From assembly GCA_947479085.1 (NCBI GenBank), contig CANJYB010000024.1, positions 1-59,942 on the forward strand: a DNA stretch of 59,942 nt. Reading direction: 5' to 3'. Origin of the DNA: Bacteroidota bacterium (GTDB lineage Bacteria; Bacteroidota; Bacteroidia; 2-12-FULL-35-15). Of this stretch, positions 2,899 through 51,618 are shown in pieces (the stretch's first letter is position 1; each line of letters begins with the position of its first letter). Made by a program: the position numbers and the translations under genes. The notes beneath the pieces are model-generated. The model had not been told where the DNA came from, made no database searches, and saw only the letters and a program-made list of their open reading frames with translations.

Positions 2899-3846
2899 AT
2901 GAAAACAATAAAAAGAACAATGCCCAGAAGCGATGAGGACAAAGCAATGGCCATTAACACAGCTAAAAGAGTAAAAGATTACATCCCACCAGCCAATATG
3001 CCGCTTACTTTAAGCACACAGGCATGGCTGGATTCGGTAGCTTTAACTTTAAGAAATGCTGACATGACCATAAGGATAGCCACCGTAAACCAAAAAAGCA
3101 ATAAACTTTTGACTGATAAAGCTTTTGCAAAGGCAAAGATGTTTATCAGTCATTATTTCCAGGCATTTAATAATGGGGTGGACAGGGGGCTGTTTCATAA
3201 AAGCAATCGTGCTTTATTTGGGTTGGCTGCCAATAGTGATGCGGTGCCTGTATTAACATCAAAAGAAAACATACGCTACTGGGGAGGACAAATAGCTTCG
3301 GGAGATGCGGAAAGAATAGCACAGGGAGGAGCTGCGATGAGCAACCCATCTGCTGCTGAGGTAAAAGAAGCAGTGGACGATTTCATTTTAAAGAACAGTG
3401 CGCTGAATGCAAACATAGGAGTATTGAACGAAGCCAAAAGGGTACTGAAAAAATTGCGCCCGGAAATAAAAAGACTGATAAAACAGATATGGAACGAAGT
3501 GGAAGTGTATTGCACCAACCAAACGGCTTCGGCCAGGCGCAGTTATGGAAGACGATGGGGAATAGTGTATGTGTCGGATGTTATCAATACTATAAAAATA
3601 TCGGTGGTAAATAAAACTAACGGTGAGCGCATTCCGAAAGCATTGATTACTGTTTTGCAAAGCAAGAAAAAATATACAGCCGATACGAATGGCAACCTGG
3701 CTATAAAAACGACTGTGAAGAAAAAAATAACATTGGATATTACGATGAAAGATTTTGAACCTGCGGAAGTGATTATTAAGTTCAATAAAAAGTTAGCTAC
3801 TTATGTAGAAAGAATTGAATTGAACCCGATAGTAACTTTGGTTTAA
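2899..3846 (+). CDS. Unknown cytoplasmic protein, helical N-terminus plus beta-sandwich-like C-terminus
   Basis: 315 aa, no signal peptide, rich in Lys and Ala. Residues ~30-215 look alpha-helical (AWLDSVALTLRNADMTIRIA; AKRVLKKLRPEIKRLIKQIW). Residues ~228-315 look like a carboxypeptidase-regulatory or Ig-like beta-sandwich (IKISVVNKTNGERIPKALITV, then TADTNGNLAIKT and ITLDITMKDFEPAEV). I do not recognise the family. It stands alone behind phased array 1, and shares this two-part layout and upstream array position with the genes at 17195 and 50998. ATG at 2899 is the first in-frame start after a stop-rich leader. Confidence 0.85.
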   Translation: MKTIKRTMPRSDEDKAMAINTAKRVKDYIPPANMPLTLSTQAWLDSVALTLRNADMTIRIATVNQKSNKLLTDKAFAKAKMFISHYFQAFNNGVDRGLFHKSNRALFGLAANSDAVPVLTSKENIRYWGGQIASGDAERIAQGGAAMSNPSAAEVKEAVDDFILKNSALNANIGVLNEAKRVLKKLRPEIKRLIKQIWNEVEVYCTNQTASARRSYGRRWGIVYVSDVINTIKISVVNKTNGERIPKALITVLQSKKKYTADTNGNLAIKTTVKKKITLDITMKDFEPAEVIIKFNKKLATYVERIELNPIVTLV

Positions 3847-8533: not shown

Positions 8534-8997
8534 TGATAAGGTTCGTTCCGTAAAATAGTCATTGCCCTGTAAAGCTGCTCAACAAAAAATAACCTTACCA
8601 TTTGGTGGGAAAAGGTCATTTTAGACAGGGCTATTTTACCATTGGCCCTTTTGTATACTTCTTCCGAAAAACCATAAGGTCCGCCTACCACAAATATTAC
8701 ATTCTTTATTCCTGAATTCATTTCCTTCTGGATAAAATCCGAGAAACCAACCGAATTGTGCTCCTTTCCGTTTTCATCCAGCAAAATTAGTTTATCTGAA
8801 GGCTGAACTCCTTTGAGTATCAACTCTCCCTCCTTCTGCTTTTGTTGTTCAATGCTCAGGGCTTTTGTATTTTTAAGTGCAGGAATAACAATGGTTTCGA
8901 ACGAAATATAGTGTTTAAGCCTTTGTTCATAGACCGTGTAACCTTTAATTATATAATCGTCTTCTGTTTTTCCATTCAGGATAAGTGTTATTTTCAT
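8524..8997 (-). CDS. rlmH: 23S rRNA (pseudouridine1915-N3)-methyltransferase RlmH
   Basis: 157 aa, the normal SPOUT-family length. Diagnostic elements are the SAM-binding knot VIFVVGGPYGFSEEV, KIALSKMTFSHQMVRLFFVEQLYRA, and the C-terminal NEPYHHL. It methylates pseudouridine 1915 in helix 69 of 23S rRNA using SAM. Divergent from the gene at 9117, with 119 bp between them. Confidence 0.97.
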   Translation of the reverse strand: MKITLILNGKTEDDYIIKGYTVYEQRLKHYISFETIVIPALKNTKALSIEQQKQKEGELILKGVQPSDKLILLDENGKEHNSVGFSDFIQKEMNSGIKNVIFVVGGPYGFSEEVYKRANGKIALSKMTFSHQMVRLFFVEQLYRAMTILRNEPYHHL

Positions 8998-10366: not shown

Positions 10367-11308
10367 ATGCGGCATAAACATATTAAAAGATACATACATT
10401 TCCGTCCTGTTTATAGTTTAATAAAAGCAAGTAAAAAAATTGTTTTGCCCGGATTTGAAGGATTATCCTTTTATATTGTTTCTAAATTTTTTTTTAAGGG
10501 GATTCAAAACGGAACACTAAATATAAGGGCTTCGTCATTATCGTTCAGTTTCTTCCTGGCTTTGTTTCCAGCTGTTATTTTTCTTTTTACTCTTATCCCC
10601 TATATTCCTATTGCACATTTCAAAGAAAATCTTTTTATGTTGATGCAAAACATGATGCCTAAGTCTGCTTTCGAAGCAACCAAGGATACCATAGTAGATA
10701 TTATTCAAAAAAGAAGAGGGGGCTTATTATCGATAGGTTTTTTCTCTGCGTTATATTTTTCCACCAATGGATTTAATGCAATGATAAACGCATTTAATGA
10801 AACTTATCATGAACTGGAAGCAAGGAACGTATGGCAACAGCGTTTGGTTTCTCTTTTTATGCTTATCATTTCCGTACTATTAATTACAATTACTATCTCC
10901 CTTTATATTGGAACGGAATACGGTTTAAAACATTTATCACACACTCATAGAGTATTATACTATGTATTACATTCCCTTAAATGGCTGATTTTATTCGGGC
11001 TTTGTTATTCCATCATTTCCTTTAATTACTACATGGGCCCAAAAAGAAAAAAGGGTTGGAGTTTTTTTTCTGCCGGCTCCATGTTTGCAACCATACTTAT
11101 TATACTTGCAACGATTACATTTTCTTACTATGTAAATAACTTCGGGAAGTACAACAAACTATATGGTTCTATTGGTTCTCTTATAGTGGTAATGATGATT
11201 ATTTATATCAACTCCCTGATTCTTCTTTTAGGGTTTGACTTGAATGCAAGTATTCATCATGCAAAAAAACACCATGAATCTTTAAACAGATTAAGGCCGG
11301 TTAAATAA
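10367..11308 (+). CDS. YihY/BrkB family inner-membrane protein
   Basis: 313 aa with about six hydrophobic segments. Family signatures include NIRASSLSFSFFLALFPAVIFLF, GGLLSIGFFSALYFSTNGFNAMINAFNETY and IYINSLILLLGFDLNAS. Older annotation as ribonuclease BN is not supported for this family. Starts 1 bp after nadC. Convergent with terC, 8-bp overlap. Confidence 0.93.
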   Translation: MRHKHIKRYIHFRPVYSLIKASKKIVLPGFEGLSFYIVSKFFFKGIQNGTLNIRASSLSFSFFLALFPAVIFLFTLIPYIPIAHFKENLFMLMQNMMPKSAFEATKDTIVDIIQKRRGGLLSIGFFSALYFSTNGFNAMINAFNETYHELEARNVWQQRLVSLFMLIISVLLITITISLYIGTEYGLKHLSHTHRVLYYVLHSLKWLILFGLCYSIISFNYYMGPKRKKGWSFFSAGSMFATILIILATITFSYYVNNFGKYNKLYGSIGSLIVVMMIIYINSLILLLGFDLNASIHHAKKHHESLNRLRPVK

Positions 11309-16078: not shown

Positions 16079-16630
16079 ATGGAAAAGTGGGAAATTGTTT
16101 TTACAATTGAGTTTATTCATAATGGAAATTCGCCTGAAAACGAGAGCGATTTCGAACGTGCTGCTAACCCAAATGCAGCTGAATTAACTTTTCGTTTTCC
16201 TATAGATGCTGACACTGCAAATAAAATTAAAACCGGAGAAATAAAACTTGTACCAAATGCAAAAATTGTAACAACAGCTGAAACTATTGAAAAAGAAGAG
16301 CCGAAAAAGAAAAAGATTATTTTAGAAAATTCGCAAAAAAGAAAAGAAACAGAAGCACAGGAGATTATATACGTAAAGTCGGATAATATTTATTCGGACG
16401 TTTATACAACTGATAATGATTTTATCACTCTGTCAAAAAATCTGAAAGAAACAGAAAAGTATTTTGATTCCGCCCTGTTTTTAAGGGTTCACAGAAGTTA
16501 TCTAATTAATAAATGTCGGATAAAAAGCCACAGCAAAACCCCTGGAAAGTATGTTATATTGGATAACGACATAAAAATAAATATAGGCAAAACGCGTAAG
16601 GAAGCATTTTTTAAAGAGATGAAATTCTAA
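16079..16630 (+). CDS. LytTR-type DNA-binding regulator without receiver domain
   Basis: 183 aa. The C-terminal half (~93-183) is a LytTR domain: IIYVKSDNIYSDVYTTDNDFITLSKNLKETEKYF, then LFLRVHRSYLINKCRI and KINIGKTRKEAFFKEM. The N-terminal ~85 residues are not a response-regulator receiver; they read as a small beta-rich part (WEIVFTIEFIHNG, AELTFRFPIDADTANKIKTGEIKLV) plus a Lys-rich linker. So it is either constitutive or senses something other than phosphorylation. LytTR domains bind pairs of short direct repeats about 21 bp apart, and phased array 2 begins 155 bp downstream. Confidence 0.88.
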   Translation: MEKWEIVFTIEFIHNGNSPENESDFERAANPNAAELTFRFPIDADTANKIKTGEIKLVPNAKIVTTAETIEKEEPKKKKIILENSQKRKETEAQEIIYVKSDNIYSDVYTTDNDFITLSKNLKETEKYFDSALFLRVHRSYLINKCRIKSHSKTPGKYVILDNDIKINIGKTRKEAFFKEMKF

Positions 16631-16640
16631 AAAATGTGTC

Positions 16641-16680
16641 GTTCACAAGTTTTGGTGTCCGTTCACAAGTTTTGGTGTCC
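16641..16680. repeat. Perfect tandem duplication of a 20-bp unit
   Basis: GTTCACAAGTTTTGGTGTCC occurs twice head to tail, preceded by a partial unit (TGTGTC). It starts 11 bp after the LytTR stop codon. Perfect conservation contrasts with the degenerate array that follows. Confidence 0.9.
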
Positions 16681-16785
16681 TTTTGCTATTTTATATAATT
16701 ATGTTTACACCATAATTTCGGAATCGTTCTTAAAAATACAGACAGACAGAGGGTTTGGGAGGAGGAAGAAAAAGGTTAAAGTCAG

Positions 16786-17037
16786 AGTATGCACCTTTTT
16801 CTTCAAAGTGTGAACCTTTTTCGTGAAAGTATGCAAACTATTGATAAAAGTTTGCACTCTTTCGTTCAAAGTATGCAACCAATTGAAAATAGTTTGCACA
16901 CTTTCGGGCAAAGTATGCAAACTATTGATAAAAGTATGCAAACAATTCGTCAAAGTATGCACACTTTCGTTCAAAAGGTGCAATGTTTGGTAAAAAAGGT
17001 GCACACTCTGAAAAATAAAGTTCAGTACCTGGTAAAA
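16786..17037. repeat. Phased array 2: twelve 21-bp units
   Basis: Twelve contiguous 21-bp units with starts at 16786 + 21n and no indels. Core consensus AGTATGCAAACTATTGATAA. Two unit types roughly alternate: one with CAAACTATTGAT (16828, 16912; similar at 16870, 16933), one with CACACTTTCGTTC (16849, 16891, 16954). Units 10-12 drift to AAGGTGCA. The array could encode heptads (S-M-Q-T-I-D-K) on the plus strand and is also open on the minus strand, but the related array 3 is not open, so DNA- or RNA-level function is favoured. Ends 157 bp before the gene at 17195. Confidence 0.9.
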
Positions 17038-17194
17038 TTGAAACATACTATATAGTAATGGATGTTTCCCTGAAATGAAAAGCTGAACTGTTTATATAAA
17101 TGACTTTACCTTTTGAATGAAGTTATTTACCAATTAGTTTACTAAGAATACCAATAAATTAAAAAAAATAATAATTAATTAAAAACAAAAACAA

Positions 17195-17869
17195 ATGAAA
17201 ACCATTGTCAATTGCCTTCGCGAATTCGCAGGCTTAAAAGAAGCAGAACAACCCATCTATATGTATAGAATGGGTGCAGCATTAACTACTAATACACTCA
17301 TCTTTCCGGATATTCCTTATGCGGGAAGTGTGATTACTACTCATGCAGGCACATTAGGAGGCTTGCTTGCTCTCAAAGACAGCAGTGATACAGCAATGTC
17401 AAGTTATCTTACAGAATTGGCCACATGTGTACAAATGGTTGAAAAAAACTATGACGATATTGACCTGGTTGCACAAGGCGATGCAGAAATAGTAGCTAAA
17501 GCAGGTGTAAGAGGAACAAGTGTAAACACCACAAGAACAGGAAGTCCATCTGTTCCTGAAAATTTAAAGTACGCATTTGCTGACAATGCAGGGGAAATGT
17601 TGATAAGCTATGATGCCGACAAATTGGCTTACGGAGCAGTAATAGTAACTTATACAGACGAAGCGATAACAGTTGTAAAAAGCGGGAATACACAATTAAA
17701 AATAACTACTCCGGAGGGTAAAATTATTTTTGTTGATATTTCAACAACTATAAAAACAACAATTCAAAACTTGTTAAAAAAATCAGAAATAATGTCGGTT
17801 GTAGCTTTGTTTAATCCTAACGGTATATCGCCTGTGGCGAGTCCTAGTTCGGTAGTGGTGCCTAAATAA
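17195..17869 (+). CDS. Unknown cytoplasmic protein behind phased array 2
   Basis: 224 aa, no signal peptide. Residues ~35-120 look helical (MSSYLTELATCVQMVEKNYDDIDLVAQGDAEIVAKAGV), with the rest beta-rich and FnIII-like (NLKYAFADNAGEMLISYDADKLAYGAVIVTYTD; GNTQLKITTPEGKIIFVDIS). The layout, including an Ala-Gly turn at the helical/beta junction (AKAGV here, QAAGLEV in the protein at 50998), resembles the gene at 50998. Family not recognised. A hairpin terminator follows at 17895. The leader has TACCTTTTG, close to the -7 box. Confidence 0.85.
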   Translation: MKTIVNCLREFAGLKEAEQPIYMYRMGAALTTNTLIFPDIPYAGSVITTHAGTLGGLLALKDSSDTAMSSYLTELATCVQMVEKNYDDIDLVAQGDAEIVAKAGVRGTSVNTTRTGSPSVPENLKYAFADNAGEMLISYDADKLAYGAVIVTYTDEAITVVKSGNTQLKITTPEGKIIFVDISTTIKTTIQNLLKKSEIMSVVALFNPNGISPVASPSSVVVPK

Positions 17870-33788: not shown

Positions 33789-34119
33789 AACAGGACTAAA
33801 AAACACAATGCTGATTTACCCCCTTTGAGCCCCGGGTTCCTTCCGGATTCAAACGGGAGCTATTCACATTTCACTCCTGCGGAGTGGCGGGTAATTGCAT
33901 TTTTGAATAGCTTACTTCAAGGTTTTGAAAAGTATTACCCTTTCCATCTAAACCCGATTGAAACGGAAATCCTTTTTCTTTTTTTATTTCAAAAAAAGAA
34001 AAAGATTGGAGAGTAAAGCGGGAAGACAATTAATAAATAGGCAGGGAGTATCTTTTCAAAAAAAAGTCAATTGCAATTGTACTACGCTTGTGGGGGAAAC
34101 ACCAAGGGCAATACTTAAT

Positions 34120-50080: not shown

Positions 50081-50997
50081 TTTGTTAAACGCTGTGCTAA
50101 ATTACTAATAATTTTATGTTAAAATTGAAAAAGATTAAAAAATTTTAAAATCAGAGGCAACCTTTTAATGCCCTCTACGTCTATGGATGCCAAAAATTTG
50201 CAGAAGGTTGCATGGATTTTCTAATATTTCTTACTTTTTTTAGGATATTTTCATTTTATTTACGGTAAAAACTTAAAATTAAACATTAACATACTGAATA
50301 ACAGCATATAACAACAATTGCTTTTTATTTAAAAAAACCGCTCATTTCTAAAAAAATAATGAGGTTTGTTTTCGGATTCCGGAGTTTTATTCATTTAAAA
50401 AAAGGCGCCTTTTTATTCACTTCTCCTTTTTCTACCAAAATAGGTTTCCGGAGTGAATTAAATCCCACTTTTTTATTATTAAAGTGGTTTATAACTCAAC
50501 CTGCAAATTAATCAAGAAATGAAAATGTGCCTTGTCCTCCCTCCCAAACGTTTTAACCTCTCTCCGGAACATTGGGAATGACCTCCGACTGCCTCGGAGG
50601 TCTGGCAAAGTGATTTAGATGTCTGGCAAAGTTGATTTAACCAACAGCAAAGTCGATTGAAGGAAGAGCAAACTCTATGTGTTAATCAGAACAGTGATTA
50701 GTAGGTGAAGCAAAGTGATTCGGAGTAAGGACAAACTCAATGTGCGGTCTATAATAAACTCCGGGAGGCTTGCAAAAGATACCGGGAGAGACCTACACTG
50801 GTTTATTAACTTTCCGAAATAAGATTTTTGAATAATTGCTAACACTAAAAACCCTTTATTAATAGGCTATTCATGCACTATTTTTGTTAAAAACGGTACA
50901 CAGTAAATCCATATATATAGAGGGCCGTGTTTAAAGTTGAATTATTTGCTGTTCTGAAAAATAAAATTAATAGTATTAACATTTAAAACTTAAAAAA
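50081..50997. other. Noncoding region carrying phased array 3
   Basis: 917 bp without a convincing gene. The first ~450 bp are AT-rich with no recognised motif. The array occupies 50538-50789. TATTTTTG at 50879-50886 fits the -7 box and is the likely promoter element for the gene at 50998 (leader about 105 nt). Confidence 0.6.
50538..50789. repeat. Phased array 3: 21-bp units, degenerate at both ends
   Basis: Units start at 50601 + 21n without indels: TCTGGCAAAGTGATTTAGAT, TCTGGCAAAGTTGATTTAAC, AACAGCAAAGTCGATTGAAG, and so on to 50789. Core GCAAAGTGATT; alternating variants carry CAAACTCTATGTG (50664) and CAAACTCAATGTG (50727). With the weak units in front, the array spans 252 bp, the same as array 2. 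Stops occur in every frame, so it does not encode a repeat protein. Confidence 0.82.
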
Positions 50998-51618
50998 ATG
51001 GCAAGCAAACGACCCATCGCAGTGCTAAAAGCACCTAAGCCGATAGACAAGTTTATTTTTAAAGTTCGGGCTTTGATTATTAACTTATTATTGAATCCCG
51101 GTTATTTCAGCGCAATTATACCAGTTCCGGCCACGGTTACACTCAATGTAAATGACCTGGAATTAAAACAAGGCAAAGTGGTGGCCCGGAAAGTAGGAGC
51201 TGCTGCTTTGCGAAATACTGCACTTACACTGGTGAAGACCAATGTATATGACCTGGTAGCGCAAATTCAGTCGCTGGCTGATAATGCAGCAAACGAAGAA
51301 GAAGCCATTGCCATTATTCAGGCAGCAGGGTTAGAAGTAAAGCAAAACGGAGTAAGAATAAAGCCCGCTTTTGAAGCAAAATGCAAAGCAGGACTTTCTG
51401 GAGTTGTTTTTGTGAGGATGAAAAAAGTACCACGAGCTTCCTACGACTGGCAGGTTTCTTACGACAATGGCACCACCTGGGTACCATTGCCCGGAACCCG
51501 ACCTGCTGACAACATTATGGAAGGAATTACCCCGGGAACGAAACTTGTATTTCGCGGGCGGGCTAATGTTGATTACAAAGCAGGTGTTTGGATGACAGCC
51601 AGCGTGATAGTGGTCTAA
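50998..51618 (+). CDS. Unknown cytoplasmic protein behind phased array 3, FnIII-like C-terminus
   Basis: 206 aa, no signal peptide, basic N-terminus. Residues ~45-118 are helical (KVGAAALRNTALTLVKTNVYDLVAQIQSLADNAANEEEAIAIIQAAGLEV). Residues ~125-206 look like a fibronectin type III domain (KPAFEAKCKAGLSGVVFVRMKKVPRASYDWQVSYDNGTTWVPLP ... LVFRGRANVDYKAGVWMTASVIVV). Family not recognised by name. The layout parallels the gene at 17195 (helical half, AG-turn, beta half). A hairpin terminator follows at 51684. Confidence 0.86.
   Translation: MASKRPIAVLKAPKPIDKFIFKVRALIINLLLNPGYFSAIIPVPATVTLNVNDLELKQGKVVARKVGAAALRNTALTLVKTNVYDLVAQIQSLADNAANEEEAIAIIQAAGLEVKQNGVRIKPAFEAKCKAGLSGVVFVRMKKVPRASYDWQVSYDNGTTWVPLPGTRPADNIMEGITPGTKLVFRGRANVDYKAGVWMTASVIVV

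Follow-up and report, generated by a model that had tools for sequence, protein, structure and literature searches.

LytTR regulators such as AgrA and HdrR bind direct repeats that lie mostly 12 bp apart and that show low sequence conservation and conserved spacing, according to the sections of PMC6193735 dealing with these sites; their half-site consensus is given as WMMGTTNRK in the corresponding part of PMC8826819. In Streptomyces, BldC forms head-to-tail multimers on DNA direct repeats, with sites of varying length and strong distortion of the DNA (PMC5859096). Porphyromonas gingivalis carries the intergenic tandem repeats BrickBuilt and MITE464/PgRS, of 23 and 41 nt, and the number of repeats varies between strains, as summarized in parts of PMC4596501. 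Finally, TAACTGA heptamers form genome-wide, mostly intergenic direct repeats in Beggiatoaceae, Cyanobacteria, and some Bacteroidetes, and in the main genome studied they lie close to start codons (excerpts of PMC4679880).

In the present study, we analyzed the window, i.e., the whole stretch of 59,942 nucleotides from a Bacteroidota bacterium (GCA_947479085.1, contig CANJYB010000024.1), starting from an array of 21-bp units for which the initial annotation had proposed binding by a LytTR protein. Most of the examined relatives of the gene downstream of this array are accompanied by runs with the same spacing, though mostly with other repeated sequences, and this points to a kind of genetic control module that has not been described.

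Results

The array and its flanking genes

The array (16786–17037, no strand assigned) consists of twelve 21-bp units of two alternating types, with a local consensus of about AAAGTATGCAAACTATTGATA; on visual inspection, degeneracy is greatest in the two units at the start and the three at the end, and in a wider scan the periodic region extends over 16759–17075. Identity within the array is 0.645 at lag 21, 0.686 at lag 42, and 0.619 at lag 63, against 0.12–0.40 at the other lags in the examined range of 1–69. Such peaks are the pattern expected of an indel-free run, and the higher identity at lag 42 than at lag 21 fits two alternating unit types. Over the whole window, lag-21 identity has a mean of 0.287 (SD 0.042); the best 250-bp stretch, at 0.651, is located at the array, and the highest lag-21 value in first-order Markov simulations (n = 50) was 0.41. 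The earlier description of twelve contiguous, indel-free units of two alternating types is thus borne out, and so is the autocorrelation check that accompanied it. The unit pattern occurs at 3 other sites in the genome versus 8 for a reversed control pattern, i.e., the unit shows no enrichment elsewhere, and a single regulon motif common to the genome was therefore rejected. Half-turn A-tract phasing was not seen either, with no W/S or R/Y signal at 10–11 bp.

The array does lie, as initially annotated, between a receiver-less LytTR gene and the gene at 17195. The former (16079–16630, + strand) encodes a 183-aa protein with PF04397 as the sole Pfam match (E = 3.2e-13). Directly past its stop codon and before the main array, a separate 20-bp repeat is found at 16636–16680 (2.3 copies, 96% matches). 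Elsewhere in the window, positions 33946–34029 match the Flavo-1 RNA (RF01705; 67.7 bits, E = 1e-12).

The downstream orphan gene (17195–17869, + strand) encodes a 224-aa protein that belongs to no Pfam family. In AlphaFold models, the N-terminal helical domain, modelled alone as a fragment, reached a pLDDT of 93.5, and the whole protein 76.6, with about 55–74 in the C-terminal part. The C-terminal domain is FN3-like by Foldseek (best E = 1.9e-6), and the family profile A2 matched FN3 chains; the family is thus predicted to combine an N-terminal helical domain with a C-terminal FN3 fold. Protein similarity searches identified homologues in 7 of 59 genomes, including the source genome, and, at the level of the class, in 24 of 395, with at most 6 matches per genome. 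In a broader search of the phylum, most matches were partial, covering the FN3 half, many of them in long proteins, and the near-full-length ones were kept. In one homologue (L038, 8145–8818), the 224-aa gene is broken into two reading frames that overlap, and a strong 21-bp array lies beside it. In tblastn searches of plasmid and phage collections, the family member L076 had no match, and no viral contig was confirmed for the family alignment A1; a plasmid or phage origin was accordingly rejected. In an iteron origin, a replication initiator gene adjoins the repeats. Here, no such gene was recognized: the downstream gene has no Pfam family, and L076 has no match among plasmids and phages.

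Arrays recur beside homologous genes, and the period is the constant

An upstream periodic stretch (identity ≥0.55) was present in 65 of 79 homologues of the orphan gene, all distinct, found by protein similarity and with at least 250 bp of upstream sequence; duplicates and L036 (141 bp upstream) were left out, and the broken copy L038, which has an array, is absent as its N-terminal piece falls under the 100-residue ORF limit. Among lags of 10–45, the best lag of the 65 arrays was 21 (20 arrays), 42 (38), 41 (2), 43 (2), 44 (2), or 40 (1). All 8 members from the source genome have an array upstream. As for the 14 homologues without one, an array lies further upstream in L127, and directly 3′ of the stop codon in L062, L145, and L146, which are all three family members found in genome G219; the remaining 10 have no array reaching the threshold in any part of the retrieved sequence. 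Some of the loci behind profile A2 were afterwards scored among the 79; many of the scored loci had first been found with A1 or the single protein, and others with A2. A control of 274 ORFs was set aside because some of its genes lie beside an array that also belongs to a family member.

The association proved predictive. A second window array with a period of 21 (50571–50706, no strand assigned, identity 0.60) turned out to precede a divergent, 206-aa family member (50998–51618, + strand), with an HMM match at E = 1e-35 to profile A2, of which this protein is itself one row. In a later set of 20 homologues of the L125 protein from its genus, all 19 testable loci (L220, with 83 bp upstream, was left out) had a best lag of 21 or 42 among lags of 10–60, at identities of 0.60–0.94. 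The association spans several genera and classes. Units of 22 bp or double units of 43/44 bp occur in L065, L068, and L072 (f9 genomes) and in L130 (one f4 genome), and at L040, 7-bp and 14-bp microsatellite arrays (8617–8940 and 10697–10979) are found near a family gene with a near-perfect 21-bp array. In relatives with altered units the spacing has stayed the same, and the period behaves like a feature of DNA spacing.

Arrays elsewhere in the window and the genome

The window holds three arrays, each upstream of an uncharacterized gene. The third (2580–2812, no strand assigned, period 42, identity 0.73) precedes a gene for a 315-aa protein (2899–3846, + strand) whose C-terminal stretch resembles CarbopepD_reg but scores below the Pfam cut-off. 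This gene has 4 paralogues in the genome, all with upstream 42-bp arrays (0.56–0.93), and two paralogues of a further family have such arrays as well. These paralogues of two families thus have upstream 42-bp arrays in 6 of 6 cases, of which two are weak (0.56). A third family has an array within about 600 bp in 4 of 6 members, about 1 kb upstream in one, and none in one. The four profile pairs compared among A2, A4, A5, and A6 revealed no homology, and common ancestry of all array-linked proteins is not shown.

In 400 kb of sampled stretches from the same genome, 22 arrays of 21 or 41–43 bp were counted versus 6 for the remaining periods between 10 and 60. By our reading, about half of the 18 arrays among those listed adjoin uncharacterized proteins of 170–320 residues and the rest ordinary genes. 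Since random genome stretches hold many more arrays, some of them beside ordinary genes, an array exclusive to the FN3-like family was rejected. In other genomes, about 178 kb of flanking sequence at a distance from family genes held 1 array of such a period; this background omits L035, L040–L042, and L051, with L041 and L042 having been fetched by array similarity.

Over 460 kb of the source genome, unfiltered, 22 of 24 arrays were intergenic, against 3 of 9 repeats with other periods. The two exceptions, which include the window array, fall within open frames (197 and 113 residues) that consist largely of the array itself, and once open frames made of repeats were dropped for all periods alike, the counts became 24 of 24 versus 3 of 9; an earlier count had dropped open frames mostly inside 21/42-bp arrays, not those inside other repeats. 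None of 23 arrays lay between convergent genes, an avoidance that is not significant because about 8% of intergenic bases counted as convergent. Elsewhere, L041, L042, L062, and L145 have arrays between convergent genes. Those of L041 (4866–5249) and L042 (9778–10052) consist of GGTGCACC-type units, and profiles A1 and A2 detected neither a family gene nor a remnant there. Extrapolated from 24 arrays in 460 kb, the genome as a whole may contain about two hundred of them, which would be private operators if the broadest reading below is right.

Unit sequences turn over

Unit sequences mostly differ from locus to locus, and the period stays. Array similarity exceeded 0.62 in 9 of 13 pairs with proteins more than 80% identical, in none of 10 pairs at 60–80%, in 22% of 32 pairs at 50–60%, and in 1–4% of more distant pairs. 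At the syntenic counterpart L031, which has the same neighboring genes, the proteins are 56% identical and the unit is visibly different, with an array similarity of 0.63, just above the 95th percentile of the background (0.618). L125 and L126 are two modules in one genome, with orphan proteins that differ at 13 of 208 residues and 423 bp up to the array that are 90% identical. Their units differ alike throughout the array, a case of concerted evolution; the common positions are, by our reading, AACACAG, five bases, and TTTTG.

Regulator genes beside the arrays

The neighbors of 63 arrays were compared, out of a set of 70 (65 of the 79 family loci and 5 of 7 others, at a threshold there of 0.62 over 63 bp), 7 of which lack an ORF upstream within the sequence retrieved. 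The nearest upstream ORF is a recognized DNA-binding regulator at 19 or more of the 63 loci, some of them orthologous: LytTR in 6, GerE in 4, HTH_3 in 4, HxlR in 2, AraC type in 2, and a sigma-70-region-4 protein in L113. Hence the folds differ (LytTR, XRE, LuxR, HxlR, and AraC), and in up to 44 of the 63 loci the upstream neighbor is not among the recognized regulators. ORFs were called crudely, family counts are read as distinct proteins, and the upstream families are the best 25 of 66. Downstream, none of these families appeared among the best 25 of 149 for 66 neighbors, although single regulators may exist among these neighbors. The later set provided 16 upstream ORFs, and 5 of the 10 that were scanned, mostly ones resembling regulators, are regulators (Pfam, E 0.05).

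In the source genome, an array lies within the fetched 1.5 kb of 9 of 19 LytTR domains. Arrays flank 5 of 6 short LytTR genes (130–193 aa, taken as receiver-less by their length) versus 3 of 12 longer ones, and the ninth domain with an array has no called ORF; the window LytTR gene is therefore a credible partner of its array. Consensus matching gave a different answer. Single WMMGTTNRK sites are present in the window array, one of them perfect, but pairs (at least 8 of 9 matches) at 21-bp spacing number 0, with a mean of 0.92 in column-permuted versions, and only 2 of 8 LytTR-linked arrays have phased half-site pairs above permutation. The initial proposal of an unusually large LytTR operator accordingly stands in part: the adjacency to short LytTR genes and the DNA-like period speak for it, and the lack of phased consensus pairs in the window array against it. 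LytTR is, moreover, one of several folds, and most arrays have no recognized regulator upstream. We consider LytTR binding at the window array plausible.

Evidence that a regulator reads its own array is mixed. In the C-terminus shared by the LuxR-type regulators of L125 and L126, 13 of 22 HTH residues differ versus 6 of 60 flanking ones (Fisher p = 1.4e-5), in a pair that was noticed first, with HTH bounds set by eye and a shortened L125 regulator ORF. L058 and L064 have a conserved HTH (5 of 33 residues changed versus 24 of 61, p = 0.019) and related arrays (0.63, above 0.618). Orphan proteins of L061 and L064 are 83% identical, their regulators 32% identical, and their arrays unrelated (0.56). 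On the other side, L205 and L207 have similar recognition helices and unrelated arrays (0.50), L207 and L218 have related arrays (0.68) and regulators that are 33% identical, and the related arrays of L033/L037 and L034/L037 (0.68 and 0.69) lie beside HxlR and XRE regulators; an HTH excess in L133/L136 was not significant (p = 0.15). A simple rule by which the array follows the recognition helix was rejected, with L125/L126 and L058/L064 for it and L205/L207, L207/L218, and L033/L034/L037 against. Given these opposing pairs and the absence of a phased pair in the window array, the pairing of regulator and array is likely but unproven.

Discussion

The recurring arrangement is best explained as a three-part module, composed of a small regulator gene, a locus-specific 21/42-bp array, and an orphan gene. 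We propose, tentatively and at somewhat less than an even chance, that the array offers the neighboring regulator many binding sites in helical phase, as a platform from which the orphan gene is controlled. The likely binder of the window array would be the LytTR protein encoded just upstream. With one unit per two helical turns, every bound subunit would face the same side of the DNA, which could allow cooperative binding and the bending or wrapping of about 250 bp next to the orphan gene, and the bent or wrapped array might in turn switch expression of that gene; binding, cooperativity, and control are what we infer from the arrangement. The unit sequence would drift as a block, given that the array presumably evolves in concert and its reader changes along with it, with only the spacing fixed. 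Weighing against this explanation are the arrays between convergent genes and those downstream of the orphan gene in G219, where no promoter is expected.

Other explanations place the function in a product of the repeats. The initial annotation had offered a heptad-repeat protein, noting that the plus-strand frame is open over the window array. It is (88 aa), but the minus strand is open too (113 aa), and the openness of the plus frame is therefore not specific. Across 25 arrays, with edges loosely cut, no strand and frame stays open in all of them; the open frame switches strand between loci, L029 and L070 are among the arrays with stops in all six frames, none of the 25 shows codon periodicity of its variable positions (lowest P = 0.09), and periods of 20, 22, 41, 43, and 44 bp break the reading frame. 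The arrays are non-coding, and translation of a heptad protein is hardly credible. A repeat RNA, transcribed within the orphan gene's untranslated region and acting after transcription, would fit arrays both upstream and directly downstream of the gene, as well as a slightly A-rich sense strand (AT skew 0.09, SE 0.02), and 68 arrays indeed fold better than their column-permuted versions (z = −2.14). However, the antisense excess is equal (z = −2.07), as expected for DNA dyads, of which the consensus units show an excess (Stouffer Z = 4.9; 70 arrays, related loci counted separately). With no compensatory change between units at the dyads (z = 1.0 and 1.2), no Rfam family over the window array at the gathering threshold, and a fixed two-turn DNA period that would be unexpected for RNA, we regard this explanation as quite improbable. 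The orphan protein could instead bind the array itself, in an autoregulated or partition-like element, as arrays accompany the gene whether upstream or downstream; its helical domain, however, has no confident PDB match (best E = 0.39), and the L125 and L126 orphan proteins are 94% identical yet their arrays have changed, which makes this very unlikely.

Two further explanations dispense with a dedicated reader. Phased DNA that is curved or easily wrapped might be read in trans by one general architectural protein, whatever the unit sequence. The fixed period and largely free sequence are consistent with this, as is RemA, a protein with a LytTR-related domain that binds repetitive DNA of poor conservation and that has been proposed to wrap this DNA (relevant parts of PMC8481266). 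In a wedge model, 54 arrays were more curved (end-to-end/contour 0.905) than column-permuted (0.927), unrepeated shuffled (0.953), or rephased (0.950–0.963) versions. Yet a two-turn repeat adds the bends of its units in phase and so curves with any unit, and the excess over permuted units is small (mean rank 0.41, SE 0.044). The RemA family, PF04025, has no match in the source genome, and the adjoining regulator genes would be left unexplained; we therefore think this reading unlikely. The arrays might also be minisatellites, comparable to the MITE-linked repeats of Porphyromonas, that spread or persist selfishly and play no part in the neighboring gene. Concerted evolution, arrays beside ordinary genes, and the tandem repeats of 22, 23, and 41 nt reported for P. 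gingivalis (parts of PMC4596501) agree with such an origin. Against it, units that differ between loci argue that no single element was copied, the arrays are tied to a protein family in several genera and classes, and only 1 such array was met in about 178 kb of other genomes away from family genes. A selfish origin is, in our judgment, improbable.

If the regulator-bound platform is retained as the preferred explanation, it might extend to a phylum-wide class of modules in which geometry rather than sequence is conserved, the regulator is exchangeable and may have any DNA-binding fold, and the array is rewritten together with its reader; this broader proposal is a possible but doubtful one. 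Such modules would be natural experiments in the joint change of a regulator and a dozen sites, and the arrays give a handle on families of uncharacterized proteins.

The architecture is real, repeated, and, as far as searched, undescribed: a full-text search of the open-licence literature for repeats and LytTR sites returned no description of it among the matches listed. Among the systems consulted, the TAACTGA heptamers and the repeats of P. gingivalis come closest. The heptamers resemble the arrays as genome-wide, mostly intergenic direct repeats, but consist of one fixed 7-bp sequence, and the excerpts of PMC4679880 mention neither a 21-bp rule nor an orphan protein family. BrickBuilt and MITE464/PgRS are likewise intergenic tandem repeats of the same phylum, whereas their copies have one sequence in common, along with IS5-type terminal inverted repeats (parts of PMC4596501), and the units here are mostly each locus's own. 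With 3 sites versus 8 for the control and different units at other loci, the arrays lack the common repeat sequence expected of a MITE minisatellite of the BrickBuilt type. RemA of Bacillus is comparable in its proposed wrapping of poorly conserved repeats through a LytTR-related domain (parts of PMC8481266), and differs in that its family is the one without a match in the source genome. BldC offers an analogy to the proposed platform in its cooperative filament on direct repeats, but it is a MerR-like protein, and the abstract and section headings of PMC5859096 mention no locus-specific array beside an orphan gene. Another analogy is given by the LytTR operators, with 9-bp repeats that yield a spacing of about 21 bp (sections of PMC6193735 on these sites) and with a LytTR gene adjoining the window array; known operators comprise one pair by a promoter, whereas the window array has a dozen units without a phased consensus pair, and other arrays here adjoin regulators of other folds. 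The newness thus lies in the architecture, and, if the best explanation holds, each array would use a known principle, the cooperative binding of a regulator to phased repeats.
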